A stretch of 64,000 nucleotides of DNA, from NCBI RefSeq assembly GCF_000010525.1, contig NC_009937.1, positions 4,159,501 through 4,223,500 of the forward strand. The letters run 5' to 3'. The stretch is from Azorhizobium caulinodans ORS 571 (GTDB lineage Bacteria; Pseudomonadota; Alphaproteobacteria; Rhizobiales; Xanthobacteraceae). Position numbers and translations under genes: made by a program. The first letter of the stretch is position 1. The number at the start of each line of letters is the position of its first letter. Under the pieces are notes generated by a model. The model saw only the letters and a program-made list of their open reading frames with translations, did not search any database and was not told where the DNA came from. Below are positions 24,008-58,445 of the stretch, in pieces.

Positions 24008-24011
<4 letters not shown>

Positions 24012-24904
24012 GGCGTCGCGGCGATCTCAAGGGCAAGGGAGCGAAGTCGTTGGCAAGCGGCCACGACTTCGCTCACCACATCCATCTGCTCCGAGAGCGG
24101 CCTGTCCCAAGAGGCGCTGCTGACGGGGATGCCGAGCATTCCCGTACTTTCCGTGGAATGGTCGATGATGCCCACCAATTTTTCGGCATCTTTGATTCGC
24201 CCGCGCAGACCATTCATGATTTGAAGATCAACAATATTTTTGTTCAGTTTCCAGAATATCGAAAATCCGTTCGGCCTATTTTCAAATTTAATCGATATCC
24301 CATAGCGATCGCCCGTCGGATCATGAGAGAAACCGGTATAATTATTTTTCAAATAATCTGAAAATTCCTCCACAAACGCATTCCGCTCGGGATCAGTTGC
24401 GAACAGCATTCTGTTTACATTTCGCAGACATTCGTGAATCGCAGCCGCGCGCCAAGCCGAGTGAGCCCCCTCTCTGCCCGCAAACCACTCTTTTATCTGT
24501 TGAAGAGAGAGCCGAACGCACCATTCCTCGGTCGTCGGCACGCCATCGATATAGGACTTGGGCGCAATCAGAATTGTCCGGTATTTTGTAGCCTTCCCGA
24601 GAGCGATTATGTCTTTTCCCCTCTCGTGATAGCGCTGGCACTGATTTTCAGTGAATGCAGCACTGATCTTATCCTCGATCAGGACGGCAATGATATCTTC
24701 CCCCTGGTTGAAATAAGCGAGAACGTCGGTCTCTCCCCATTTTGCATTTACCTTCGCCGAAACGGAATGCTCCGCTCCTAAGAATTTCGCTTCCGCAATG
24801 CCGATCTGCTCGGCAAACCAGTCCGCGAAGCCGCTATTGGCGTGAAGTTCTTCGAGAATGAACAGATCCAGGTCACGTTCCTGCATTTTGAACGGCGCGG
24901 CCAT
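24008..24904 (-). CDS. PD-(D/E)XK nuclease superfamily protein
   Basis: Predicted nuclease of unknown target. In the 298-residue product the N-terminal third has the core pattern: a conserved acid in [11 protein letters not shown] (D60), then EDK (E77-x-K79) on the next strand, fitting D...(D/E)xK with magnesium-binding acids. It resembles stand-alone PD-(D/E)XK proteins often found singly in accessory regions. The C-terminal half ([15 protein letters not shown]) has no motif I recognise. The gene is much more AT-rich than its neighbours, especially 24200-24750, which points to recent acquisition. The ATG has GAGGAGAG upstream. It converges on rpoD, and both stop codons come from one CTAG. 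A role in defence is conjecture. Confidence 0.75.
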
Positions 24905-25254: not shown

Positions 25255-25342
25255 GGGGCTGGCCAGCCCTCCGAGCGGCAGGCACAAGCCTTGCTTACCT
25301 CTGCGGCAACGGTACGAAACCGTGCCGCCGAGGAGGAACAGG

Positions 25343-26962
25343 ATGCCGTTTGAACTGCCGCTCGACCGCCGCACGCTGCTGAAGGGTTCCGGAACTTTGG
25401 GCCTGTCGCTGCTTCTGGGCGGCACCGCTTCCGCGCAGGCCCGCAACGAGACCCTGCTGGTGGTGCAGGAGCTTGGCCCCAACAGCCTCGACATGCATGG
25501 CGTCGGCTCCAACCAGACCGTCAACGGCCTTTCCTGGAACACGTACGACCGCCTGCTCACTTATGCCCCCAAGACGCTGCCCGACGGCACGCTCTCCTAT
25601 GACCGGGCGACGCTGGCGCCGGAGCTGGCGGAGCGCTGGGAAGAGGCGGCGGACGGCATGTCCTGCACCTTCCACCTGCGCAAGGACGCCGTCTTTCATG
25701 ACGGCACGCCCGTCACCGCCAAGGACGTGAAGTGGTCCTTTGACCGCGCGGTGAGCGTCGGCGGCTTCCCCACCTTCCAGATGTCGGCGGGCTCGCTGGA
25801 GAAGAAGGAGCAGTTCGTGGTCGTGGACGACCACACCTTCCGCATCGACTATCTGCGCAAGGACAAGATGCTGCTGTTCAACGTGGCGGTGGTGGTGCCC
25901 TTCGTCATCAACTCCGCCCTCGCCCAGAAAAACGCCATGGCGGACGATCCGTGGGCAATGAACTGGCTGAAGACGAACACGGCCGGCGGCGGCGCCTACA
26001 AGGTGGAGAGCTGGAAGCCGGGCTCGGAGACGATCCTCACCCGCTTCGACGGCTGGAAGAGCGGCAAGCTCCCCTCCATCCGCCGCATCATCATCCGCGA
26101 CGTGCCCTCCGCCGGCACCCGCCGGGCCATGCTGGAGCGGGGCGATGCGGACCTCTCCGCCGGCTTCCCGCCCAAGGATTTCGAGCAGCTCATCAAGGAG
26201 GCCAAGGTGAAGGTGGTCGGCGTGCCGATCCCCAATTGCCTCTGGTACATCGCCCTCAACACGTCGAAGCCGCCCTTCGACAACGTGAAGCTGCGCCAGG
26301 CCATCGCCTGGGCGATGCCTTACCAGCAGATCCAGGACAACGCCTTCTTCGGCCGCGCCATTCCCATGTATGGCGCCAAGAGCACGACGCCCGCCGAGCC
26401 GGTGTGGCCGCAGCCCTTCCCCTATGCCACCGACCTTGAGAAGGCGAAGGCGCTGATGGTGGAGGCCGGCTTCCCGAACGGGCTGGAAACGACGCTCTCG
26501 CTGGATGTGGGCACCGCGACTGTGGGCGAGCCCACGGCCCTGCTCATTCAGGAAAACCTCGCCAAGATCGGCATCAAGGCCGCAGTGGAGAAGATCCCCG
26601 GCGCCAACTGGCGCACGACGCTGAACAAGAAGGAGCTCCCCATGGTGCTCAACAGGTTCAGCGGCTGGCTGGATTATCCGGAATACTATTTCTACTGGAA
26701 CCTGCACGGCAACAATTCGATCTTCAACATCTCCGCCTACAAGAATGCGGAGATGGACAAGCTGATCGATAAGGCCCGCTTCAGCGCCGACAAGGCGGAA
26801 TACGCCGAGACGGTGAAGCAGTTCATCGCCATGTGCATGGCCGAGGTGCCCATCGTGCCCCTCAACCAGCCCATGCATGACGTCGCCATGCAGAAGAGCG
26901 TCTCGGGCTACGAGTTCTGGTTCCACCGTGAGCCGGACTATCGCCAGTTCACCAAGGGGTAA
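25343..26962 (+). CDS. ABC transporter substrate-binding protein, family 5 (peptide/nickel/opine type)
   Basis: Periplasmic binding protein of an oligopeptide-type ABC importer. The 539 residues start with a Tat-like signal (DRRTLLKGSGTLGLSLLLGG, cleavage near TASA), followed by the SBP_bac_5 domain to the C-terminus: LAERWEEAADGMSCTFHLRKD, FHDGTPVTAKDVKWSF, and AWAMPYQQI motifs. GAGGAGGAACAGG precedes the ATG; a GTG seven codons earlier is disfavoured. No permease or ATPase gene is adjacent inside the window: the next gene is convergent. It may therefore act with subunits encoded elsewhere. The substrate cannot be told from sequence alone. Confidence 0.9.
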   Translation: MPFELPLDRRTLLKGSGTLGLSLLLGGTASAQARNETLLVVQELGPNSLDMHGVGSNQTVNGLSWNTYDRLLTYAPKTLPDGTLSYDRATLAPELAERWEEAADGMSCTFHLRKDAVFHDGTPVTAKDVKWSFDRAVSVGGFPTFQMSAGSLEKKEQFVVVDDHTFRIDYLRKDKMLLFNVAVVVPFVINSALAQKNAMADDPWAMNWLKTNTAGGGAYKVESWKPGSETILTRFDGWKSGKLPSIRRIIIRDVPSAGTRRAMLERGDADLSAGFPPKDFEQLIKEAKVKVVGVPIPNCLWYIALNTSKPPFDNVKLRQAIAWAMPYQQIQDNAFFGRAIPMYGAKSTTPAEPVWPQPFPYATDLEKAKALMVEAGFPNGLETTLSLDVGTATVGEPTALLIQENLAKIGIKAAVEKIPGANWRTTLNKKELPMVLNRFSGWLDYPEYYFYWNLHGNNSIFNISAYKNAEMDKLIDKARFSADKAEYAETVKQFIAMCMAEVPIVPLNQPMHDVAMQKSVSGYEFWFHREPDYRQFTKG

Positions 26963-27237: not shown

Positions 27238-30200
27238 TCAGAAGCGCCAGGAGAGGATCCCCTTCACGGCCGTCTCCGTGAAGCCGGAGGCGATCTGGCC
27301 GTTATAGGCGAGCGACAGGTCGAGATTGTCCGCGAGCTTCGCGCCTGCGCCGAGGCCCAGCAACAGAGCGTCGGTGGCGAGCGGCGCCCCCGCCACGGTA
27401 AAGGGCAGCGAGCCGGCCGCAAACGTGAAGGTGGTGGTGGGCGTCACATCGCCGAAGGCGTGCTGCCAGCCGACGCTGCCCGTCAGCGCCACGGGCACGG
27501 CCCCCACCTGCACCGTCGTGCGCGCCCGCAGGCCCAGCGTCGTGCTCAGCGTGTCGAAGCTCGCGCTTTGTGCCCGGAGCGCCGCCGGCCCGAAGGGCTC
27601 GGTGAAGCCGTTGGTAGACAGCGCCGTGTAGGTGAGACCGGCGAAGGGCTCAAGGCTCACCGGCAGTCCCTCGGTCCTGGGCGCGTAGGTATAGGCGAGT
27701 TCGCCGAACACCTGCGCCGTTCCCGCCGAATAGCCGGTGCCATAGCCGGCCACGAGACCTGGCGCCGTGACGGTGCGGCTCACCGAGAGATCGTGCCAGC
27801 CATAGGCCGCACCCGCCCGCAGCGCGAAGGCCCCGTTGGCATCGCCCCCGAAGGTGCGGCCGGCATAGAGGGCCAGATCGTAATTGTCGCTGGTGCCGCT
27901 GCCCGGCAGGCTGTCCGTGCTGAAGTCCGACTGGCTGTAGCCGCCGGCCACGCCCACCCGCCAGTCCGACAGACGCCCGTCGAGACCGATGAGGAAGCCG
28001 GTGAGGGACCGCGTCACGGCGGAGGCATTGCCGTCGCTGGCCGTGCTGCCCCACCCGCCGTAGGCCTGCCCCCAGAGCGTCGTTCCGAAGCCATCGACGG
28101 GCGCGAGCTGCGCCGTGCCCGGCGCGCCTTCCGCCTGCGCGAGACGGCCGGTCACGGCGTTGCGCACGTAAGAGGACTGAACCTGGAGCACGCCTTGCGC
28201 GGAGGCATAGATCTCGCCGGAGAGGCTGGCCAGCGCCGCCGGCGCCGCAGCCCCCGGCATGACCGCGAGTGCCTGCCCCAGCGGCTGCGCGAGCGCCACC
28301 GTATCGGCGGCACGCCCGACGGCGGCGGCATTGGCGGTGGGGGCGAGGGCCGCATAGGAGACGGCGCTGCGGTTCAGCGTCAGGAGGCCGCTGTCGGCGC
28401 CGGAGCCGAGGCTCGCCGAGAGGAAGGGATAGACCGCCCCTGCCGTGCCGAAATAGGGACCGCCGACCGTGAAGTTGGAGGCCGTCGTGCCGGCCGAGAA
28501 GACGCGGTAGCCGGCCCCGAGCGCCGGCGCGAAACCCTCGCCGGGAATGGGCACGAGCACGGCGCCACCCGCCGTCAGCGTGCCGCCCACGATCAGCCGG
28601 TCGGATGTGCCCGGCGTGCCGAGTTCGGCCAGCAGCACGGCTCCGGGCTCGAACGTGGCATTCTCCCGGACGACGTGGGTGCCGATGGAATTGCCCGGCG
28701 ACAGAGCGCCGCCGGTGCGCACCAGCAGATGGCCCACGGTGCCGTTGCCGCCGAAGGTGCCGGTGTTCTCGACGGTGCCGGTGATGGTGCCGTTGTTGGT
28801 GAACTGGCCGGCATTGGACACATTGCCGGTGATGCCGCCGGCGTTCACGAAGACTCCGGTGTTCGCGACGATGGCCGGGGGCGTGGCCGCACCGGGCCCG
28901 ATGCTGCCGTTGTTGGTGAAGCGGCCGGAGTTCTGCACCGTCCCGGCGATGGTGCCGGTGGCAGCGCTGGTAAACTGTCCGGTGTTCGTCACGTTGCCGG
29001 CGATGGAGCCGGCATTCAGGAAGACGCCGGAGTTCGCGATGTTCGCCGTAAAGGCGCCCGTCGCGGTGTTGGTCGCCGTACCGGAATTGCTGAAGCTCAC
29101 CGCGAAGGTGCCGCTGTTCACCACGGTGCCGGCATTGCTCACGCTCACCGAGGACGGCCCGGTAAAGGTTCCGGCGTTCGAGAGGGTGCGCCCCGCAGCG
29201 ACAGTGTAGCCGCCGCTGGCATCAAGGAAGGTGGCCCCCGCCAGTACGGAGAGGGAGCCGATGAGCGTGCCGCCGAGCTGGGTGGTGCCGCTCGCCACCA
29301 CGGTGCCGCCCGAATGGGTGAGCTGGCCGTTCAACGTGACGCTACCGCCTTGCAGGGTGAGCTGGCCGGTGCCGGTGAAGTCGCTATTGAAAGTGGCGGT
29401 CGAGCCGGAAGCCGTCGCGACGGTCGCATTCGCAATCAGCAGCACCGGCAGGTTGGTGGCGAAGTCCGATGTGAGATTGAGGGTGCCCTGCGCGGCGATC
29501 ATCTGCGTGACCTGCGCCGTGCTGCCCGGATAATTGTTCAGCGCGAGGCCGATGAAGCCGCCGTCCGCATCATACAGCACGTTGTAGCCGGCATAGGTGT
29601 GCAGGCCGGAATTGATGAAGCCGGAGGATGAATCGAAGAAGCTCACCCGGGTCGGCGTCTGCGGATTGGTGCTGGCGGGGCTCGTGCTGCTCGGCACCGT
29701 GAAGCTGTAGGTGCCGATGCCGTTTCCGAGCTGCAGCGTCACCACGGTGTTCGAGGCCGGCGTGATGGACCCGCCATTGGGAATGCCGATGAAGGCGTCT
29801 TCCACGCCCGTGTCCATGAGCAGCGTGCCCTTGCCCGAGGCGCTGCTGGCCGGCGTGCTGGCCCCGGCGGGGGTTGTCACCGTCACGGTCACCGTCGTCG
29901 CCAGCCACTGGGGCGCGCCGGCGGTCTGCTTCGGAGCCAGCGCGAGCTGGGCATAGCTGTAGGCCTGCGCCGAGGTGTTGGCCTCGGTCAGCCCCAGATA
30001 AACGCCCGTGGGCGTGATGATGTAGCCGTTGCGATAGGCGCCCGAGCCGCTGGTGACCACATTGAGGAAGGGATTGTAGATCTGCGGCGTGGTCGGCGCC
30101 GCGTCGAGCCGGGCCGCCGCCGCCGTGGGATTGGACGTGTTCACCACGCCCGTGCCCATCGTGTTGCGATCGAAGCCGATGCCCATCATCTGCACGCCGT

Positions 30201-30708
30201 TGACCGAGGTTGCGGCATCGCAGGTGGACGAGTTGGCACCGACGCCGAGGCACTGGGCCTGCGTGACCACCAGCACCGGCACGTTCGAGACCACGGGCGT
30301 CGCCGCGCCGTTGGCGTCCTTGCCGGAGAACTGGACATTCTGCTGGCTGAAATAGCCGGTCAGCAGCAGGCCCGAGCTGTTGTAGAAGACCCAGCCCGCC
30401 TGCGCATTCACCGGTGCGGTCGTGCTGAGGCCGAGAACGTTCGCGGAGATGACGAGGCCGGTCGAGCCGGTATCCATGGTGGGATAGAGCGTGTGACCGG
30501 CCACGGACACGTTGAAATTCATCGTCGTCGCATTGGAGAGCGCGCCCGAAAGGCCCCGCGCATACTCGATGAAGTAGGACTGGCTGTAGCTGTTGTACAT
30601 CGACCAGGTCAGGGCGTCGGCCGCATGGGCCGCCGGCGGCAGCGCCACCGATGCCAGCATCACCGCCAGCCATGCGCGCCGCATCGCGCGCCGGCTGCCG
30701 CGCGACAT
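27238..30708 (-). CDS. Autotransporter with a pepsin-like aspartic protease passenger
   Basis: Predicted type V secreted surface protein of 1156 residues. Order of parts: signal peptide (1-29, cut after AHA); a bilobed aspartic-protease-like domain (about 35-425); an Asn/Gly/Thr-rich beta-helix stalk of NSG/NTGQFT repeats (about 430-730); a linker; and an autotransporter barrel (about 873-1156) starting GFGTTLWGQAYGG and ending in the required aromatic residue (GILSWRF). The protease signs are D79 in MDTGSTGLVIS, D299 in LLMDTGVEDAFIG, a flap-like FYNSSGLLLTGYF (Y109), GIGF after strand pairs, and a terminal NVLYDADGGFIGLAL like the lobe-closing strand of pepsins. Other starts are an ATG at 30753 and a GTG at 30768, which would lengthen the signal. 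A DUF3443-like fold is the main alternative. Activity is unproven. Confidence 0.8.
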   Translation of the reverse strand: MSRGSRRAMRRAWLAVMLASVALPPAAHAADALTWSMYNSYSQSYFIEYARGLSGALSNATTMNFNVSVAGHTLYPTMDTGSTGLVISANVLGLSTTAPVNAQAGWVFYNSSGLLLTGYFSQQNVQFSGKDANGAATPVVSNVPVLVVTQAQCLGVGANSSTCDAATSVNGVQMMGIGFDRNTMGTGVVNTSNPTAAAARLDAAPTTPQIYNPFLNVVTSGSGAYRNGYIITPTGVYLGLTEANTSAQAYSYAQLALAPKQTAGAPQWLATTVTVTVTTPAGASTPASSASGKGTLLMDTGVEDAFIGIPNGGSITPASNTVVTLQLGNGIGTYSFTVPSSTSPASTNPQTPTRVSFFDSSSGFINSGLHTYAGYNVLYDADGGFIGLALNNYPGSTAQVTQMIAAQGTLNLTSDFATNLPVLLIANATVATASGSTATFNSDFTGTGQLTLQGGSVTLNGQLTHSGGTVVASGTTQLGGTLIGSLSVLAGATFLDASGGYTVAAGRTLSNAGTFTGPSSVSVSNAGTVVNSGTFAVSFSNSGTATNTATGAFTANIANSGVFLNAGSIAGNVTNTGQFTSAATGTIAGTVQNSGRFTNNGSIGPGAATPPAIVANTGVFVNAGGITGNVSNAGQFTNNGTITGTVENTGTFGGNGTVGHLLVRTGGALSPGNSIGTHVVRENATFEPGAVLLAELGTPGTSDRLIVGGTLTAGGAVLVPIPGEGFAPALGAGYRVFSAGTTASNFTVGGPYFGTAGAVYPFLSASLGSGADSGLLTLNRSAVSYAALAPTANAAAVGRAADTVALAQPLGQALAVMPGAAAPAALASLSGEIYASAQGVLQVQSSYVRNAVTGRLAQAEGAPGTAQLAPVDGFGTTLWGQAYGGWGSTASDGNASAVTRSLTGFLIGLDGRLSDWRVGVAGGYSQSDFSTDSLPGSGTSDNYDLALYAGRTFGGDANGAFALRAGAAYGWHDLSVSRTVTAPGLVAGYGTGYSAGTAQVFGELAYTYAPRTEGLPVSLEPFAGLTYTALSTNGFTEPFGPAALRAQSASFDTLSTTLGLRARTTVQVGAVPVALTGSVGWQHAFGDVTPTTTFTFAAGSLPFTVAGAPLATDALLLGLGAGAKLADNLDLSLAYNGQIASGFTETAVKGILSWRF

Positions 30709-30890
30709 CGCTCCACCGTGCGCCGTTCCAGCGCTCCGCCCCACCGCATTCATCACGATCGCCCCCACCAGGATGGGGCGACGGTGACGGGCACCTGCGG
30801 TTAGGTCAATGCGGTAGACCGCTACGACGGCGCGGGGCGAACCGGGCGTGCCCGGAATGCCACAACCGGACCCCTCTTTTTGCGGCTAAG

Positions 30891-39595: not shown

Positions 39596-41887
39596 TCAGG
39601 CTTCGCTCTGGGCTTCCACCACGGCGACGGCGGTCATGTTGACGATGCCGCGGGCGGTCACCGTCGGGCCGAGGATGTGCGCCGGCTTGGCGGTGCCCAT
39701 GAGGATGGGGCCGACCGGGAGCGCGTCGCCCAGCACCTTGATCATGTTGTAGGCGATGTCCGCCGCATCGAGGTCGGGCATCACCAGCACGTTGGCCACG
39801 CCCTGGAGGCGCGAGTGCGGGAGAATGCGCTCGCGGGCATCCGGCAGCAGCGCGAGTTCCGCCTGCATCTCGCCATCCACCTCAAGCTCCGGCGCGCGGT
39901 CCTTGAGGATGTCGAGGGCCGCACGGACCCGGCGGGCGCAGACGGTGTCGTTGCTGCCGAAATTGGAGTGCGACAGCAGGGCCACCTTCGGCTCGATGCC
40001 GAAGCGCCGCACGTGCGCGGCGGCGAGGATGGTCATCTCCGCAAGGTCGGCGGCGTTCGGCTCGGTCTGCACCTGCGTGTCGCACAGGAACAAATTGCCC
40101 TTCGGAGTGATGAGCAGCGAGAGCGCGGCCAGTTCGCGCACGCCCGGAGCCAGGCCGATGATGTCGCGCACATGACGCAGATGGCGGGAGAAGCGGCCTT
40201 CGATGCCGCACAGCATGGCATCCGCCTCGCCCTTCTTCACGGCCAGCGCCGAGATGACGGTCGAGGAGGTGCGCACCAGCGTGCGGGCGGCATCCGGCGT
40301 CACGCCGCGACGGCCGGCGATCTCGATGTAGGAGCGCACGAAGTCGCGGTAGCGCGGATCGTCTTCGGGGTTGATGACCTCGAAGTCCTTGCCGGGACGG
40401 ATCGAGAGACCGAAGCGCTGGAGGCGGGCTTCGAGCACGCTCGGGCGGGCGACGAGGATGGGATGGGCAATGCCCTCCTCGATCACCGCCTGCGCGGCGC
40501 GCAGCACGCGCTCGTCCTCGCCCTCGGCGTAGATGACGCGCTTCTTGTCCTGCTTCGCGCGCTGGAACAGCGGACGCATGATGAAGCCGGAGCGGAAGAC
40601 GAACTCGTCGAGCTTCTCGTTATAGGCGTCGAAATCGGCGATGGGCCGGGTGGCGACGCCGGTGTCCATGGCCGCCTTGGCCACCGCCGGGGCGATGCGC
40701 AGGATGAGGCGCGGATCGAACGGCGAAGGAATGATGCTGTCCGCACCGAAGGCGCGGGTCTCGCCGCCATAGGCGCGGGCCACCACGTCGGAGGGCGTCT
40801 CGCGGGCGAGCGCGGCGATGGCTTCCACCGCCGCCATCTTCATCTCGGCATTGATGTCGGTGGCACCCACATCCAGCGCGCCGCGGAAGATGTAGGGGAA
40901 GCAGAGGACGTTGTTCACCTGGTTCGGGAAGTCCGAACGGCCGGTGCAGATCATGGCGTCGGGCCGCACGGCGCGGGCCTCTTCCGGCATGATCTCGGGA
41001 TTGGGGTTGGCGAGCGCGAGGATGAGCGGACGATCCGCCATGCGCTGGACCATCTCCGGCTTCAGCACGCCGCCGGCGGAGAGGCCGAGGAAGATGTGCG
41101 CGCCGTCGATCACCTCGGCGAGCGTGCGGGCGTCGGTCTTCTGGGCATAGACAGACTTGTAGGGGTCCATGAGGGTCTCGCGGCCTTCATAGACCACGCC
41201 CTCGATGTCGCAGACCCAGATGTTCTCGCGCTTGGCGCCGAGGGTCACCAGCAGGTTGAGGCAGGCGATGGCCGCCGCGCCCGCACCGGAGGTGACGATC
41301 TTGAGGTCTTCGATCTTGCGGTTGCCGATCTCCAGCGCGTTGCGGACGGCAGCGCCGACGATGATGGCGGTGCCATGCTGGTCGTCGTGGAAGACCGGAA
41401 TCTTCATGCGCTCGCGCAGGCGCTTCTCCACCTCGAAGCACTCGGGCGCCTTGATGTCCTCAAGGTTGATTCCGCCGAAGGTGGGCTCCAGCGCGGCCAC
41501 CGTCTCGACCAGATGGTCGATCTCGGTGGCGGCGAGCTCGATGTCGAACACGTCGATGCCGGCGAACTTCTTGAACAGGACCGCCTTGCCCTCCATCACG
41601 GGCTTGGAGGCGAGCGGGCCGATGTTTCCGAGGCCGAGCACGGCGGTGCCGTTGGACACCACCGCCACAAGATTGGCGCGGGTGGTCAGTTCTGCGGCCT
41701 GGAGCGGGTCAGCCTTGATGGCCTCGCAGGCCGCGGCGACGCCGGGAGAATAGGCCAGAGCGAGATCGCGCTGATTGCCGAGGGGCTTGGTCGCCTGGAT
41801 TTCCAGTTTCCCAGGCTTGGGGCTGCGATGGTAGACAAGCGCGCCGGATTTCAGATCCTCGGAAATGTTCGACATGTTTGACGCCAT
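39596..41887 (-). CDS. maeB: NADP-dependent malic enzyme with phosphotransacetylase-like domain
   Basis: Oxidative decarboxylation of malate to pyruvate with NADP+, supplying NADPH and pyruvate during growth on organic acids. The 763 residues comprise the malic N-terminal domain (about 20-155, [14 protein letters not shown]), the NAD(P)-binding domain (about 165-420, [31 protein letters not shown]), and a C-terminal phosphotransacetylase-like domain (about 435-755) that in rhizobial MaeB proteins has no shown Pta activity and may regulate assembly. The first ATG is preceded by GGGGGAGGAC. A very long open frame upstream on the same strand runs antisense to the next gene and is not coding. Confidence 0.96.
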
Positions 41888-42037
41888 GTCCTCCCCCAAG
41901 CCTCTCTTACAGATGTCCACCGAACGGGCGGGCAACCTATCCCCCGCGGCGGGGGATGTCACGGTCTGGCATGGCGATTTCGCGGCGAATAGCGCCAAGC
42001 TCGGTGGATTCGGTTCCACGTGGAGGAAAAAGCACGC

Positions 42038-44074
42038 ATGAAAAAGGTCATCATCACTGTCGCAGTGATCGCCGTACTGGGTGTCGGCGGCTATTTCGGC
42101 TTCGACCGGTTCGTGCAGATGCGCGCCCGCAACGACGTGGAGACTGTCTTTGCGTCCCTGCGCCAGAAGGGCGCCCAGGCGAGCTACAAGGATGTCGCCT
42201 TCACCCTCTCCGGCCGCCGCCTCACGGTGACCGGCATCGAGATCACCGGCCCCGCTGCCGGCCAGCAGGTGAAGCTTGAGCGGCTGGACGCCCAGGAGGT
42301 GACCTCGCCCTCCGGCGGCACGGTGCAGGCCAAGTCGGTCGAGCTCACGGGCCTCAGCGTCGCCGTGACGGACCCGCTGGCCGCCCAGACCAAGGTCACC
42401 TATTCCGCGCCGCAGGTCAGCCTCGTCGGCTACTCCGGCCCGGACCGCATGCCCGCCGTGCCCCCGGGCAGCAAGGCGACGCAGGCCCTGCGCGACGGCC
42501 TCGTGCTGTTCGGCGCGGTGCGCATCGACAGCGTGAGCATTCCCAAGCTCAGCGGCGATGTGACGCCCCCGCCGGCGCAGGGCGACAAGCCGGCGGCGGC
42601 GCCCTCCAGCTTCACCTATGAGGCCCTCACGGCCTCCGGCATCGGCGAGGGACGCATCGCCGAGCTGAAGGTCGGCAAGATGCTCGTGTCCACCACCACC
42701 GTCATCGAAGCCACGACGGTGCCCGTCGTGGTGGACGTGGCCGACCTGCGCGCCTCCGGCATCGACACCGGGCCGATCCGCATGCTGACCGACGCCGAGC
42801 CCAAGGCCTCCAGCCCGCTGCCCATCTACGAGAAGATCAGCACCGGCGCCTATCGCCTGCGGCACAAGGAGACCAACCTCTTCTCCGCCGGCAGCCTGAG
42901 CGCGCAGCGCGTGGCCATCAATCCCGAGAAGCTGTCCATCGAGCGGCTCCAGCAGCTTTCGGCCCTCGCCCAGCAGCCCCCTTCGGACGACCCCAAGCAG
43001 GTGGTCGCCATCGTGGAGCGCACCCTGCCGGTGATCGACGGCTTCGCGGTCGGCCAGATCTCCGTGAACGACATCGCGCTGGCCGAGAAGGACGCCGCGG
43101 TGAAGATCGCGGCCATGAACATGAAGGGCTTCGTGGACGGCCGTCTGGAGACGCTGGAGGTTCTCGGCCTCACCAGCCAGCTCCCCGGCGAGAAGCCCTC
43201 CACGGTGAAGCGCGCCGCCATCCTGGGCCTGTCGCTCAAGAGCATTCTTGAGCAGAGCGCGGCCATGGCCAGCAAGGACGACAAGAACGAACTGATCGCC
43301 CTCAATGCCAGCGCCGCCGTGCTGAAGAGCTTCTCCGGCTTCGAGCTGGAGGGCCTCGAGGCGCCCTATGACGCCAACGGCAAGATGGTGAGCATCGAGA
43401 AGATGTCGCTCTCCTGGGGCGATTTCACCGGCCTCCTGCCCACCCGCGTCGCCTTCCGCCTCGACAAGGTGAGCGGCCCGATCTCGGCGGAGGACGGCGA
43501 GCCCTTCAGCTATCTCGCCGCCGCCGGCATGGACCGCACGAGCATCTCGTCCGTGCTCAACCTGAGCTACGACGCCAATGCCCGGAGCCTTGCCCTCGCG
43601 CCGGCCTCGCTGGAGTTGGAGAAGGCCTTCTCCGCCAAGATCGAGGCGCGGCTGGAGAACGTGCCGAAGGACGTGTTCGACGCGGCACCCCAGGACGTGA
43701 TGAACAATCCCACCGCCATCCTCGCCAAGCTGCAGAACGTGACCGCCGGCGCGCTGTCGGTCACCGTGACCGATCTCGGCCTCGCCAATCTGATGCTGAA
43801 GCAGCAAGCGGAACTCGCCGGCGTCGAGCCGGAGGATCTGCGGTCCGAGCTTATCTCGGGCATCCAGATGGGGACGCAGGATGCCGCGACCGTCAATCCG
43901 GACGCGGCTGCGGTGGGCGAGGCGATCGCCGCCTTCGTGAAGGCGCCGGGCACCATCACCGTCACCCTCACGCCGAAGCGGCCCCTCCCGGTCGCGTCCC
44001 TGCTGAGCCTGGACGATCCCTTCGACGCCCTCGCCGCCTTCAAGATGACGGCGACGGCCGGCCCGCGTCCCTGA
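42038..44074 (+). CDS. Large membrane-anchored protein of unknown function
   Basis: The 678-residue product starts MKKVIITVAVIAVLGVGGYF, a single N-terminal anchor, and the remaining ~650 residues should lie in the periplasm. The sequence alternates short beta-type segments with the recurring pattern ...LSLKSI..., ...LELEKAF..., somewhat like long beta-rich proteins that bridge the envelope (AsmA/DUF945-like layout), but I cannot assign a family. No catalytic motif is apparent. GGAGG lies eleven bases upstream of the ATG. The gene is divergent from maeB and followed by a hairpin with a T-tract. Confidence 0.7.
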   Translation: MKKVIITVAVIAVLGVGGYFGFDRFVQMRARNDVETVFASLRQKGAQASYKDVAFTLSGRRLTVTGIEITGPAAGQQVKLERLDAQEVTSPSGGTVQAKSVELTGLSVAVTDPLAAQTKVTYSAPQVSLVGYSGPDRMPAVPPGSKATQALRDGLVLFGAVRIDSVSIPKLSGDVTPPPAQGDKPAAAPSSFTYEALTASGIGEGRIAELKVGKMLVSTTTVIEATTVPVVVDVADLRASGIDTGPIRMLTDAEPKASSPLPIYEKISTGAYRLRHKETNLFSAGSLSAQRVAINPEKLSIERLQQLSALAQQPPSDDPKQVVAIVERTLPVIDGFAVGQISVNDIALAEKDAAVKIAAMNMKGFVDGRLETLEVLGLTSQLPGEKPSTVKRAAILGLSLKSILEQSAAMASKDDKNELIALNASAAVLKSFSGFELEGLEAPYDANGKMVSIEKMSLSWGDFTGLLPTRVAFRLDKVSGPISAEDGEPFSYLAAAGMDRTSISSVLNLSYDANARSLALAPASLELEKAFSAKIEARLENVPKDVFDAAPQDVMNNPTAILAKLQNVTAGALSVTVTDLGLANLMLKQQAELAGVEPEDLRSELISGIQMGTQDAATVNPDAAAVGEAIAAFVKAPGTITVTLTPKRPLPVASLLSLDDPFDALAAFKMTATAGPRP

Positions 44075-44093
44075 CGGACCGACCGGCGTAGTT

Positions 44094-46031
44094 TCAAGAG
44101 GAGAGCGGCGCGCCGGATCCAGGCGCGCCGTTTTCGTAAGGACCGGATGCCCGGAGCGCTGCCTCCAGCGCCTCATTCGCCGCAGCGAGGTCAGCCGTTG
44201 CGGTTTCGCCGTCCGCAGGCGCTGTAAGGCAAGCTTCCGCCCGCGCAAGACGGGCTGCCCCATCCGCCGTCAGAGCGAGGCTGCCGCTCTCCGCCTGACC
44301 GGCCACTTGCCGTGCCCAATGGACTGACGCCAGAAGGGTCCGCGGCAGCGGATCGGGCTCCGCTCCAACCACCAGACGGCGCGCGGCCTCCAGGCTCGCC
44401 AGCGCGCCCGCCGCCTCGCGGAAGCTGCGGTCCACCGCCCGCATGGCGCGCACCGGCTGCGCCGACACATCACCAGCGAGGCGCTGCCGCGACAGACGGA
44501 CCACCTCGGCCAGCCCCGCCATGACGGCCCGCACCTGCCGCGCCAGCAGCGGCCGCGTCGGCACGGGGAAGATGACAAGCGCGCAGAGCATGGCGATGAG
44601 ACAGCCGGCGCTCACCTCGGCCAGCCGGATCTCCAGCAGCTCGGACATGGTGGCGCCGAGACTGCCGTAGACCAGGCCCACCAGCACGGTGAGGAAGAAG
44701 ATCGCCTTGGCATAGGCATGCAGGATGAAGAAGGCCCAGCCAGCGACGCAGACGAGCATCAGGGCGACCTCGGCCGCCGGATGTCCCCGGAGGGCGTAGG
44801 TCGCCGCCGCGCCGGCCACGACTCCGGCCAGCGTCCCGATGATGCGCTGGGCGCTGCGGTGGATCATCTCGGCGCGCGAGCGCATGCCGAGCAGCACGAG
44901 GAAGACGGAGAAGACGCCCCAGAACCAGCGCTCGGGCGAGATGGCGAGCCCCACCCAGAGGGTGAGCGTGCCGGCGAGAGCCACGCGCACCGCCGCCCGC
45001 CACGCGAGCCCCACCGGGCCGGCGGCAGGGGCGCCGGGCGCGGGGCGGAAGCCCGTGGCCGCTGCCCCCGCGATCTCCGACATGCGGGCGGCGGCCACCT
45101 CGATGTCGCGCACAGTGCGGCGGGTCGGGCCGCAGGGCACGTCCACACCGCGGGGCGGAGCGAAGGCCCCCTCTTCCAGCCGGGCGGCGCAGGCGAGCAG
45201 CAGGCGGGCGCATTCGCGGGGTGGCGGGCGCAGACGCAGCGCCCCCACTGCCTGCTCGAAGGCCAGAACCGCCTCGGCCATGCTTGCGGCATAAGCAGCA
45301 CCAGCACCGACGCGACCGGCGGCGAGCGCCAGATGGTCCTCCACCAGCAGCGCCACCTCGTTCAGGCGGGCCAAAGCGAGGTCCGGCTCGCGGCCCTCGG
45401 CCATCCGCCGCAGCACCGCCGCGCCCCGGCAGGCAAGCGCCTGCACCGCCCGGCGCAGCACGGCGGCGGGCGCGGAAGGCAGGAGGACGCGGCAGACCAG
45501 CACCACCACCGCCAGCGCCACCGGCACGATGGCGAGGGCAGCGCCGAGGTCCGCGGGTCCGGGATGGAGGTAGAGCCCAACATAATAGAGCACGCCTGCC
45601 ACCATGCCCGCCGCGGTCGGGCCGAGACCGAGGGGATGCACGGCGACCGCCAGCGTCAGCACGAGGATGAAGCCCGCCTGCACCAGCGCCGGCCAGGGGG
45701 CGAGCAGCGCGCCGCACAGGTAGGTGGAGAGCGCGCAGGCCACGACGAGGCCCAGCGCACGGGCATAGTCCCGCCAGCCCGTCTGACGCACCAGAACCGG
45801 GAGCACCATGGCCAGCACCAACGCGGGCGCCGCGACGGTCAGCGGCAGGCCGGTGAGCTTGAGGCCGGGCAACAGGAGACCACCCGTGAGGATGACGCAG
45901 GCCAACACCCGCAGGGCGATGAAGGTGCGCAGCAGGCCGGGATCGGACTGCTGGAGCGCCGCCAGCGCACGCCGGCACCACGCCAGGGCCGGAAACCGGC
46001 GCAGGGGCAGGACGAGCGGGGCAACCGGCAT
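44094..46031 (-). CDS. FUSC-family membrane transporter (fusaric acid resistance/AaeB-like)
   Basis: Predicted inner-membrane efflux component for aromatic or other carboxylic acids. The 645 residues contain two blocks of about five to six membrane helices (about 25-180 and 345-500), each followed by a soluble helical region, the usual FUSC layout. The segment RRTVRDIEVAAARM and the helix-rich C-terminal RSFREAAGALASLEAARRLV fit the family. No periplasmic adaptor gene is adjacent, unlike classic aaeAB. AGGAG sits seven bases before the ATG, and a perfect palindrome overlaps that region, so a dimeric repressor probably controls it. Confidence 0.85.
   Translation of the reverse strand: MPVAPLVLPLRRFPALAWCRRALAALQQSDPGLLRTFIALRVLACVILTGGLLLPGLKLTGLPLTVAAPALVLAMVLPVLVRQTGWRDYARALGLVVACALSTYLCGALLAPWPALVQAGFILVLTLAVAVHPLGLGPTAAGMVAGVLYYVGLYLHPGPADLGAALAIVPVALAVVVLVCRVLLPSAPAAVLRRAVQALACRGAAVLRRMAEGREPDLALARLNEVALLVEDHLALAAGRVGAGAAYAASMAEAVLAFEQAVGALRLRPPPRECARLLLACAARLEEGAFAPPRGVDVPCGPTRRTVRDIEVAAARMSEIAGAAATGFRPAPGAPAAGPVGLAWRAAVRVALAGTLTLWVGLAISPERWFWGVFSVFLVLLGMRSRAEMIHRSAQRIIGTLAGVVAGAAATYALRGHPAAEVALMLVCVAGWAFFILHAYAKAIFFLTVLVGLVYGSLGATMSELLEIRLAEVSAGCLIAMLCALVIFPVPTRPLLARQVRAVMAGLAEVVRLSRQRLAGDVSAQPVRAMRAVDRSFREAAGALASLEAARRLVVGAEPDPLPRTLLASVHWARQVAGQAESGSLALTADGAARLARAEACLTAPADGETATADLAAANEALEAALRASGPYENGAPGSGAPLSS
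44106..44135 (+). terminator. Terminator of the unknown membrane protein gene
   Basis: Perfect stem CGGCGCGCC-GGATCCA-GGCGCGCCG followed by TTTTC. It lies inside the last codons of the converging FUSC gene, so the same DNA both codes and terminates. Confidence 0.75.
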
Positions 46032-46040
46032 GGGCGCTCC

Positions 46041-46065
46041 TTTAGGTCAGCATTATTGACCTAAA
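46041..46065. promoter_or_regulatory. 25-bp palindromic operator upstream of the FUSC gene
   Basis: TTTAGGTCA-GCATTAT-TGACCTAAA: perfect 9-bp arms around a 7-bp spacer, ending ten bases before the FUSC start codon and touching its ribosome site. Size and symmetry fit a MarR-type or similar dimeric repressor. No regulator gene is adjacent. Confidence 0.7.
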
Positions 46066-46114
46066 CTAACGCACCCCGCTGCGCTGCACAAGCGGTCCGG
46101 CCCGATCCGCAAAA

Positions 46115-46148
46115 CGCCAAAGGCCCGCCGGGTGACGGGCCTTTGGTA
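46115..46148 (-). terminator. Terminator downstream of aspS
   Basis: Stem CCAAAGGCCCG / CGGGCCTTTGG with an eight-base loop; on the minus strand it is followed by CGTTTTGC, about 95 bases past the aspS stop. Confidence 0.75.
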
Positions 46149-46241
46149 TGTGCCTTCGGATGGGAGGACTGGCAGGGGCAGCGGCGGTTCGGGCAGGAGC
46201 AATCCGCCCGGGGACCCAGCCGATGCCCGCCCCCGTTCGCC

Positions 46242-48014
46242 TCACTTCGCCGGCAAGGCCGGACGGATGTGCAGTTCCTTCATCTGCTTGGGCGTCGCCT
46301 CGTTCGGCGCGCCCATGAGCAGGTCGAGGGCCTGCTGGTTCATGGGGAAGAGCGATATCTCGCGCAGGTTCGAGACGCCGCACAGGAGCATCACGATGCG
46401 GTCGATGCCCGCCGCCATGCCTCCGTGGGGCGGCGCGCCATACTGGAAGGCGCGGTACATGCCGCCGAAGCGCTCGATGACGGTCGCCTCGTCATAGCCG
46501 GCCAGCTCGAACGCCTTCACCATCGCCTCGGGGCGGTGGTTGCGGATGCCGCCGGAGGCGATCTCGTAGCCGTTGCAGGCGATGTCGTACTGGAAGGCCT
46601 TGATGGTGAGCGGGTCCTGCCCGTTCAGCGCCTCAAGCCCGCCCTGCGGCATGGAGAAGGGGTTGTGGGAGAAGTCGATCTTCTTCTCCTCGTCCGACCA
46701 TTCGTAGAAGGGGAAGTCCACGATCCAGGCCAGCTCGAACCGCTCGGTGTCGATGAGCTTCAGCTCCTCGCCCACCTTGGTGCGGGCAAGACCGGCGAAC
46801 TTGTAGAACTTCTCCGGATTGCCGGCGACGAAGAAGGCGGCATCGCCGTCCTTGAGGCCGAGCTGCTCGCGGATGGCAGCGGTGCGCTCGGGGCCGATGT
46901 TGTTGGCGAGCGGGCCTGCGCCCTCTCCGCCTTCACGCCACATGATGTAGCCGAGGCCCGGCTGGCCCTCGCCCTGCGCCCACGAGTTCATGCGGTCGCA
47001 GAACGCACGCGAACCGCCGGTCGGGCCGGGGATCGCCCACACCTCGTTCTTCGGGTCTTCGAGCAGGCGCGCGAACACCTTGAAATTCGAGCCACGGAAG
47101 TGCTCGGAGACGTTCTGCATCACCAGCGGGTTGCGCAGGTCCGGCTTGTCGGAGCCGTACTTGCGCAGGGCTTCCGCATATGGAATGCGCGGCCAGTTCT
47201 GGGTGACGGGCTTGCCGCCGCCGAACTCCTCGAACACGCCCCGGATCACCGGCTCCACCGCCGCGAACACGTCGTCCTGCGTGACGAAGCTCATTTCGAG
47301 GTCGAGCTGGTAGAACTCGCCCGGCAGGCGGTCGGCACGCGGGTCCTCGTCGCGGAAACAGGGGGCGATCTGGAAGTAGCGGTCGAAGCCGCTCATCATG
47401 ATGAGCTGCTTGTACTGCTGGGGCGCCTGGGGCAGGGCGTAGAACTTGCCGGGATGGATGCGCGAGGGCACGAGGAAGTCGCGCGCGCCTTCCGGCGAGG
47501 AGGCGGTCAGGATCGGCGTCTGGAACTCGAAGAAGCCCTGCCCCTTCATGCGCTGGCGCAGGCTGTCGATGATCTGGCCGCGCTTCATGATGTTGCCGTG
47601 GATGCGCTCGCGGCGCAGGTCCAGGAAGCGGTAGCGCAGGCGGATATCTTCCGGATAATCCTGATCGCCGAACACCGGCAGCGGCAGCTCGGCGGCCGGG
47701 CCGAGCACCTCAAGGTCGGTGGCGTAGATCTCCACCTTGCCGGTGGCGAGCTCTGAATTCTCCGTGCCCTCGGGGCGCAGGCGCACGCGGCCATCGACGC
47801 GGATCACCCATTCCGCGCGCACCTTCTCGGCGGCGGCGAAGGCGGCGCTGTCGGGATCGAACACCACCTGGGTCAAGCCGTAATGGTCGCGCAGGTCCAC
47901 GAACAGCACGCCGCCATGGTCGCGGATACGGTGGCACCAGCCGGAGACGCGGACGGTGTCGCCCACCTGGGCTTCGGTGAGCGCGCCGCAGGTGTGGGTG
48001 CGGTAGCGGTGCAT
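46242..48014 (-). CDS. aspS: Aspartyl-tRNA synthetase, bacterial type (probably non-discriminating)
   Basis: Charges tRNA-Asp with aspartate. The 590-residue protein has the OB-fold anticodon domain (about 1-105), the class II catalytic core with motifs [21 protein letters not shown] (motif 2 region) and [13 protein letters not shown] (motif 3), and the inserted GAD domain typical of bacterial AspRS. The anticodon-binding segment reads [10 protein letters not shown], with His (H33) at the position that, as I recall, distinguishes non-discriminating enzymes, which also charge tRNA-Asn for later amidation by GatCAB. The start [10 protein letters not shown] has AAGG upstream. It is divergent from the GGDEF-EAL gene. 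Confidence 0.96.
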
Positions 48015-54995: not shown

Positions 54996-57293
<2,298 letters not shown>

Positions 57294-57422
57294 CTAAAGG
57301 AAGCATCTTGCCCGCCCTTCATTCCATTGCGGTGCGAACAAGGACACGCTTCCGTCATCAAAGAGCTTAGAGTGGGAGCCAAGAACAAGCCGTGGCCTCC
57401 GCCACCGCGGCTGGAGGCGTTC

Positions 57423-58445
57423 ATGTTTCAGGGGTTCAACCGCCGCTTTTTCGGCGGCGAAGCACAGGCCGACATTCCGCTCGTGGCCGATGAGACCGTG
57501 GAGGCGCGCCCGGCCGCTCCTGCGAACACCCCGCGCATCGGACTGGCGCTTGGGGGCGGGGCGGCGCGCGGCTTTGCCCATATCGGCGTGCTGCGGACAC
57601 TGGAAAAGCACGGCATCCGCCCGGACGTGGTGGCCGGCACCTCCATCGGCGCGGTGGTCGGCGGGCTGTGGGCAGCGGGCAAGCTCGACCCGCTGGAGGG
57701 CTGGGCCCGCAGCCTCAAGAAGCGCGACGTGCTCGGCATGCTGGACTTCACCTTCGGCTCCGCCGGCCTCATCGGGGGGCGGCGGCTCGTCGATCTGATG
57801 CGCCGCCATGTGGAGCCGACCCGCATCGAGAGCCTGTCCACGGTCTTCGCCGCCATCGCCACGGAGCTGGGCAGCGGCCACGAGATCTGGCTCACCCGTG
57901 GCGACCTCATCGAGGCGATCCACGCCAGCTACTGCCTGCCGGGCATCTTCACGCCGGTGAAGGTGGGCGGGCGCTGGCTGATGGACGGCGCGCTGGTGAA
58001 CCCCATCCCCGTCTCCGCCGCCCGCGCCATGGGCGCGCGCATCGTGATCGCGGTGAACCTTAATTCGGATGTCTTCGGCAAGGGCGCGGTGATCCACGAT
58101 CACGGCAGCATGCTGGAGACAGCAGAGGCGGCGCTGGCGGAAAAGCGGGCGCGTTTCTCGGGAATCCTGCGGCCGGACCGGCTGTTGCGGCGGCAGTTCT
58201 TCTCCGGCGCGCCGGACGGACCGAAGGGCATCTCGTCGGTGATGATCGATGCCTTCAACATCACCCAGGACCGCATCGCCCGCTCGCGGCTGGCGGGAGA
58301 TCCGCCGGACGTCTCCATCTCGCCCAAGCTCGGCAAGATCGGCCTGTTCGAGTTCCAGCGCGCGGACGAGGCGATCGCCGCCGGCGCCGAGGCGGCGGAA
58401 AAGGTGATCGACGAACTCAAGGAAGTGATGGTCGCCCTCGCCTGA
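57423..58445 (+). CDS. Patatin-like phospholipase (RssA type)
   Basis: Predicted lipid acyl hydrolase. The 340 residues contain the patatin motifs in order: oxyanion loop GGGAARGFAHIGVL, nucleophile elbow GTSIG, and catalytic Asp in MDGALVNPIP, so the Ser/Asp dyad is complete. A short N-terminal extension (FQGFNRRFFGG...) precedes the domain, and there is no signal peptide, so it should act in the cytosol or at the inner membrane. GGAGG lies six bases before the ATG. The frame is open far upstream, antisense to ppk, but that part is not coding. Confidence 0.93.
   Translation: MFQGFNRRFFGGEAQADIPLVADETVEARPAAPANTPRIGLALGGGAARGFAHIGVLRTLEKHGIRPDVVAGTSIGAVVGGLWAAGKLDPLEGWARSLKKRDVLGMLDFTFGSAGLIGGRRLVDLMRRHVEPTRIESLSTVFAAIATELGSGHEIWLTRGDLIEAIHASYCLPGIFTPVKVGGRWLMDGALVNPIPVSAARAMGARIVIAVNLNSDVFGKGAVIHDHGSMLETAEAALAEKRARFSGILRPDRLLRRQFFSGAPDGPKGISSVMIDAFNITQDRIARSRLAGDPPDVSISPKLGKIGLFEFQRADEAIAAGAEAAEKVIDELKEVMVALA

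Follow-up and report, generated by a model that had tools for sequence, protein, structure and literature searches.

PecA (PE_PGRS35), a protease on the surface of mycobacteria, is described as active against PE_PGRS proteins and against itself and as inactive with the D293G substitution, and has been called unique as bacterial and extracellular (PMC6819658). The published surface or secreted aspartic proteases that we found in Gram-negative bacteria are described as retropepsin-like, namely APRc, which is exposed on the rickettsial outer membrane and in vitro cleaves two autotransporters, OmpB and OmpA (PMC4140852), and RloA of Pseudomonas, which lies outside the cytoplasm (PMC12239564). The bacterial pepsins of peptidase family A1 (Rawlings and Bateman 2009) are reported to be without signal peptides and are predicted to be intracellular (PMC2761423). 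The subtilisin-like autotransporters EprS, NalP, SphB1, and SSP are in turn built from an N-terminal protease of ~400 residues, a beta-helix, and a barrel (PMC9289746). The words "aspartic," "aspartyl," and "pepsin" were not found in that review, and among the open-licence papers listed, no title or abstract opening describes an aspartic-protease autotransporter, which is no proof of absence. Here we analysed a stretch of 64,000 nucleotides (the window) of the Azorhizobium caulinodans ORS 571 chromosome record NC_009937.1, positions 4,159,501 to 4,223,500, and describe the product (the window protein) of an open reading frame (ORF) on its minus strand at 27238..30708. We consider it likely, with a probability of roughly 0.8, that this protein is a self-exported, PecA-like surface aspartic protease, i.e. 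a type V autotransporter with a bilobed, pepsin-fold head. The features that we assign to it are as follows (positions are those of the window).

27238..30708, minus strand: autotransporter ORF of 1156 amino acids, with ATG at 30708 and an in-frame GTG at 30768 as a possible start
30622..30708, minus strand: signal peptide (residues 1-29), an Arg-rich stretch followed by a hydrophobic one, with an AHA/AD cleavage site (called by eye)
29539..30621, minus strand: aspartic-protease-like head, residues about 30-390 (~360 residues), placed by relatives' profiles and conservation
30457..30474, minus strand: first catalytic motif DTGSTG, D79-G84; D79, G81, and S82 in 46/46 copies, T80 in 38/46
30370..30384, minus strand: flap-like YNSSG, Y109-G113; Y109 in 46/46 copies, predicted to match the pepsin Tyr75 position and to lie in a flap
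30220..30252, minus strand: C153 (42/46 copies) and C163 (46/46), likely one small N-lobe disulfide loop
30172..30189, minus strand: MMGIGF, the N-lobe hydrophobic-hydrophobic-Gly (psi-loop) element; G176 in 46/46 copies, G178 in 43/46
29806..29814, minus strand: second catalytic motif DTG, D299-G301, with Val302 next; D299 and G301 in 46/46 copies, T300 in 43/46
29548..29619, minus strand: FINSGLHTYAGYNVLYDADGGFIG, the element that closes the C-lobe; N366 does not vary, and the element is paired with MNTG of 4ehc
28099..29538, minus strand: repetitive Gly/Asn/Thr stalk, residues about 391-870, beta-helix-like by eye
27241..28077, minus strand: autotransporter beta-barrel, residues 878-1156, with terminal Phe; PF03797

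The initial annotation of this ORF, which was made from the letters alone, had proposed a pepsin-type aspartic protease fused to a complete autotransporter barrel ending in Phe. The barrel was confirmed by PF03797, the sole Pfam match in the window protein (residues 878-1136 of 1156; expectation value (E) 5.2e-60), and, with the by-eye signal peptide, the N-terminal passenger, and the aromatic end on one polypeptide, the layout is that of a type Va autotransporter. Further, residues 631-1156 resembled the C-terminal half of the EprS model (NCBIfam; 276 bits versus a cut-off of 1700 bits), and stalk residues 645-775 matched the solved structure 8e7f. The stalk and the barrel are thus of the EprS build, and the head is not. 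The only two cysteines of the protein are both in the head, ten residues apart; the loop that they likely close would be small enough to pass an autotransporter pore.

Because the window head alone matched no aspartic-protease family in Pfam or NCBIfam (PF00026, i.e. peptidase family A1; PF20729 and NF038019, the PecA-family catalytic profile, which relatives match mostly below the cut-off), its kinship with aspartic proteases was reached through relatives. In profile searches against solved structures, run at E up to 10, three profiles of relatives each had as their first match 4ehc, the aspartic-protease domain of PE_PGRS16. With an 18-row profile, 4ehc was matched at E 5.8e-5 and retropepsins from 0.025, and two of the 23 matching rows were not aspartic proteases (an ATP-grasp protein and DbpA). 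With a 22-row profile, the values were 1.7e-5 for 4ehc, 2.6e-4 for a pepsin, and from 0.006 for tethered retropepsins; 59 of the best 60 of 78 matches were aspartic proteases, the exception being 4onr. A profile made only from the 16 relatives that carry head and barrel in the same ORF (the fusions) matched 4ehc at E 9.9e-6, collinear across both lobes, such that DTGSTG is paired with DTGSTG, DSG lies opposite the second DTG, MNTG lies opposite the FVN element, and both aspartates are aligned with those of a solved protease; CD177 (0.02) and renin (0.51) made up the remaining two rows. At the level of families, PE-PGRS_C was matched at E up to 1 by 8/16 fusions, the best at 3.3e-9, and at E up to 10 by 13 of the 18 members of a mixed set, the best at 5.8e-9; the PecA model NF038019 was matched by 11 of these 18 members (E up to 0.01). 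Other matches among the fusions at E up to 1 were Asp_protease_2 (seven) and gag-asp_proteas (four), and unrelated families matched single fusions each, at 0.078 or worse. One fusion, L092, scored over the cut-offs of PF00026 (22.4 versus 19.9 bits) and DUF3443, and is the only one of the 16 to pass PF00026.

The two DTG motifs at D79 and D299, 220 residues apart, are present in the ORF exactly as initially annotated, as are the flap-like FYNSSGLLLTGYF, GIGF, and the closing-strand NVLYDADGGFIGLAL, and the hydrophobic pair said to precede both motifs is found if Thr is allowed at -2; a third D[TS]G sits in the stalk, at residue 772. By themselves, two D[TS]G motifs are weak evidence, barely above chance: when residues 30-430 were shuffled 200000 times, 6356 of the shuffled sequences had at least two, and in 258 of 200000 there were two that each followed two hydrophobic residues (or Thr at -2), 90 of these 258 also having the motifs 150-260 residues apart. 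The motif pair is raised above chance by the conservation of the catalytic residues across aligned copies of the head. Counting only copies with at least 150 matched residues, the collected loci held 56 distinct copies, of which 46 were aligned and ten were excluded by hand, either as cut by contig ends (L009, L015, and L018) or as partial or distant (the second copy of L011, L022, L059, L060, L067, L072, and L073); L018 has half a domain, and the second copy of L011 and L067 have one D[TS]G only in the matched part. In the alignment, 11 of 357 columns are invariant (D79, G81, S82, Y109, G118, C163, G176, N212, D299, G301, and N366), and six of these 11 (D79, G81, S82, the flap residue Y109, D299, and G301) are pepsin machinery. 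Overall, the profile matches to solved aspartic proteases, the invariance of the catalytic residues, and the 16 same-ORF fusions support the initially proposed pepsin-type head on an autotransporter. The ground for refutation named in the initial annotation, that close homologues lack both DTG motifs, does not apply to these fusions. That the motifs arose by chance in an ordinary adhesin-type autotransporter would fit the frequency of shuffles with at least two D[TS]G and a passenger that alone matches no family, but is highly improbable, being largely refuted by the invariance in 46 copies, by stand-alone copies that have no barrel, and by profile matches with an E of about 1e-5 to the solved structure of an aspartic protease.

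Besides the lack of a family match by the window head alone, several results weigh against the assignment as an aspartic protease. The C-lobe stretch that the 18-row profile aligns with 4ehc stops short of the second Asp; that of the 22-row profile includes it, but has an E of 19 alone; and the stretches of the 16-fusion profile, taken singly, have E 0.0077 and, for the C-lobe, 0.18. In the pepsin match of the 22-row profile, the C-lobe motif of the head is paired with the N-lobe of pepsin. Similarity between the two lobes of the head is negligible (E 0.065; reversed, 0.3), and a comparison with four bacterial A1 pepsins gave weak alignments that were not in register (E 0.0025 at best, versus 0.69 when reversed). 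The curated cut-off of PE-PGRS_C was passed in only 3 of 41 relatives' genomes, most matches lying below it, and NF038019 matched just 1 of the 16 fusions. Finally, the hydrophobic-hydrophobic-Gly element is present in the N-lobe (G176), but the C-lobe lacks its classical form and has an N-[ST]-[GS] element instead. Because 4ehc likewise has MNTG where the C-lobe hydrophobic-hydrophobic-Gly would stand, this departure suits kinship with the 4ehc lineage rather than with A1 proper. From this homology we infer that the head would form two lobes around a cleft, with the two aspartates facing each other.

An alternative is that the head has kept its pepsin fold, has lost protease function, and serves as a binding or adhesin module. 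PE_PGRS16, the structural anchor of the comparison above, is reported to be without proteolytic activity (PMC6819658), which also counts against our assignment; the C-lobe psi-loop deviates from that of pepsin; and in one autotransporter relative (L083:2788-6270) DIG replaces the second DTG, a possible natural change of activity, whereas both D[TS]G motifs are intact in the other 15 fusions. However, D79, G81, S82, Y109, D299, and G301 are unchanged in 46/46 copies while all but five other columns vary, even though the heads of the 22-row set are just 24-61% identical to that of the window protein. Lost catalysis normally lets such residues drift, and we regard a purely binding role as quite unlikely.

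The initial annotation had also suggested a DUF3443-like ancestry. DUF3443 (PF11925), a separate family, shares with the window protein two D[TS]G motifs and a profile likeness that is confined to the N-lobe (hhalign probability 76, E 2.3e-5, reversed control 0.25). This likeness, and the fusion over the DUF3443 cut-off, are what stands of the suggestion; the window head does not match the family at its curated cut-off, and we rejected DUF3443 as the direct ancestor on the grounds that fewer members match it than match PE-PGRS_C and that the likeness is limited to the N-lobe. For most members, DUF3443 is, on profile evidence, a more distant relative of the head than the PecA-type domain. The A. 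caulinodans genome itself encodes a genuine DUF3443 protein (L022, G000:C1:1544924-1546012), and is its sole carrier among 142 class-sample genomes.

Compared with the described systems, the window protein is closest to the domain shared by PecA and PE_PGRS16 (PF20729, NF038019, 4ehc), with which it has in common the order DTG...D[TS]G, the DTGSTG context, the NTG closing element, and, as in PecA, fusion to an export module for surface display. The two differ in Asp spacing (177 residues in PecA, from 293 to 470, versus 220) and in build: PecA has a PE domain, type VII secretion, and a C-terminal catalytic domain, whereas the window protein has a signal peptide and a barrel in place of the PE domain and PGRS linker, and its head is N-terminal. 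With EprS, NalP, SphB1, and SSP it shares the arrangement of parts, but their heads are serine-type and its head is aspartic-type. APRc and RloA, likened to it by description, are also aspartic proteases outside the Gram-negative cytoplasm, but are not two-lobed and have no fused autotransporter barrel. The Asp-Tyr and Asp-Asp spacings of the window protein, 30 and 220, compare with 32 and 245 in the A1 pepsin of Shewanella amazonensis (PMC2761423); A. caulinodans ORS 571 has no PF00026 match in its genome. Overall, the comparisons support the view that the window protein joins two known kinds, the PecA-like surface aspartic proteases and the protease autotransporters. Identity with AoaA, which we take to carry an RGD motif, is unlikely, because the window protein has no such motif. 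A. caulinodans requires the autotransporter AoaA in stem nodules (PMC9289746).

We propose that the signal peptide would direct the protein through the inner membrane by the Sec route, that the C-terminal barrel would insert into the outer membrane and bring the passenger out, and that the stalk would hold the head at the cell surface, where the enzyme is probably displayed by Azorhizobium. Each lobe would contribute one catalytic aspartate, D79 or D299, and the pair would activate water beneath the Y109-bearing flap, leading to peptide-bond cleavage. By its place after the second DTG, Val302 takes the position of pepsin Thr218. In the bacterial A1 homologues an Asp is reported at this position, and such a change in renin gives activity at neutral pH (PMC2761423); our guess is that Val302 might give a less acidic pH optimum.

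With respect to substrates, processing of the cell's own surface proteins, itself included, is favoured by analogy because PecA and APRc act on such proteins; we put this forward tentatively, at somewhat less than an even chance. A variant of the surface-protease explanation is that the enzyme scavenges, i.e. digests outside proteins whose peptides are then imported, for example via the adjoining family 5 solute-binding protein. The gene for the latter (SBP_bac_5, 25322-26962) is convergent with the autotransporter ORF and is kept as a neighbour in L020 and L021. However, a permease was not found among the neighbours scanned, a scan that covered part of the ORFs, same-genome copies of the head adjoin unrelated genes, and family 5 binding proteins take many ligands, and we hold scavenging to be unlikely.

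The ORF is flanked by this solute-binding protein gene and a glutamine synthetase gene. In A. doebereinerae and A. oxalatiphilum the gene is kept between the same neighbours, including a histidine kinase gene beyond, with identities of 91-92% for the solute-binding protein, 87-89% for the glutamine synthetase, and 66-71% for the histidine kinase. Because the scanned neighbours have no relation to the gene and are not the same from one copy to another within the genome, the neighbourhood was set aside as a clue and points to no clear substrate. In the A. caulinodans genome PF03797 is matched 14 times, once partially, and two of the 14 carry an aspartic-protease-like head. Directly after a stand-alone copy in this genome lies a 711-residue ORF (L090:5700-7835) that has no Pfam match, with a DUF3592 gene next.

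We next consider how widely the head occurs. It was found in 11 of 61 genomes (A. caulinodans included) and matched in 21 of 397 genomes of an order sample and 7 of 398 of a phylum sample (A. caulinodans included in both); in these two samples, at most five candidates per genome were scored, and copy numbers are lower bounds. The same head-barrel fusion was found in 16 of the 56 distinct copies, with PF03797 matched in 15 of 15 fusions scanned and the barrel of the 16th (L092) recognised by a local barrel profile. Twelve of the 16 are order-sample rows, and the others are L020, L021, L088, and L092; frames of fusion length (>1000 residues) made up at least 12 rows from 10 of the 21 matching order-sample genomes. 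The three matching phylum-sample genomes outside the order have short frames only, of 333 to 427 residues. The trait looks scattered within Hyphomicrobiales. A mobile origin was considered and rejected: phages gave no match, and one distant stand-alone copy is in a Methylobacterium bullatum plasmid record.

In a maximum-likelihood tree of the 46 heads, which has several long branches and good support for 21 of 43 inner branches, the 16 fusions cluster (4 label changes versus a shuffled mean of 13.6). A single clade of all 16 fusions was rejected (p-AU 2.9e-7); one clade of the 15 fusions other than L092, a set chosen after viewing the tree, was not (p 0.383). L092 (G486:C1:1327500-1333500) and L082 (G486:C1:1330500-1339500) mark a tandem of a stand-alone copy and two fusions. 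The L092 barrel is 91.2% identical to that of its tandem neighbour fusion in L082, while the heads are 20.4% identical; between the L092 head and the stand-alone copy in the same genome (L082:5981-7093), identity is 42.7%. The simplest reading of these identities is that the chassis was duplicated and the head replaced at this locus. Extending this, we speculate, at odds clearly short of even, that the same stalk-barrel chassis has acquired PecA-like heads on two or more occasions and that these are swapped as cassettes, that the Azorhizobium enzyme matures or sheds other surface autotransporters, such that one self-exporting protein does for Gram-negative bacteria what PecA does on mycobacteria, and that autotransporters have an aspartic catalytic class next to the serine ones.

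Elsewhere in the window, a PD-(D/E)XK nuclease-like gene with a low third-position GC (guanine plus cytosine) content of 0.58 (24008-24904), beside a sigma-70 gene, may be acquired. Two adjacent plus-strand ORFs of 448 and 537 residues (44718-47756) are without a Pfam match, the second having a third-position GC of 0.66, and a 1117-residue ORF (55092-58445) has a patatin domain at residues 818-977 only, its long N-terminal part being without a Pfam match. An apparent giant malic-enzyme fusion at 39596-44263 was discarded, in that its first ~790 residues look like an antisense reading and Met793 is the likely start.

Bacterial pepsin homologues have so far been described as intracellular (PMC2761423), and a family of pepsin-like proteins fused to a barrel for their own export widens this picture. 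If the assignment is correct, the autotransporter proteases would gain a catalytic class and modular exchange of their heads would be demonstrated. For A. caulinodans, a nitrogen-fixing legume symbiont and not a pathogen, it raises the question of whether such an enzyme may remodel the bacterial surface or act on plant proteins.

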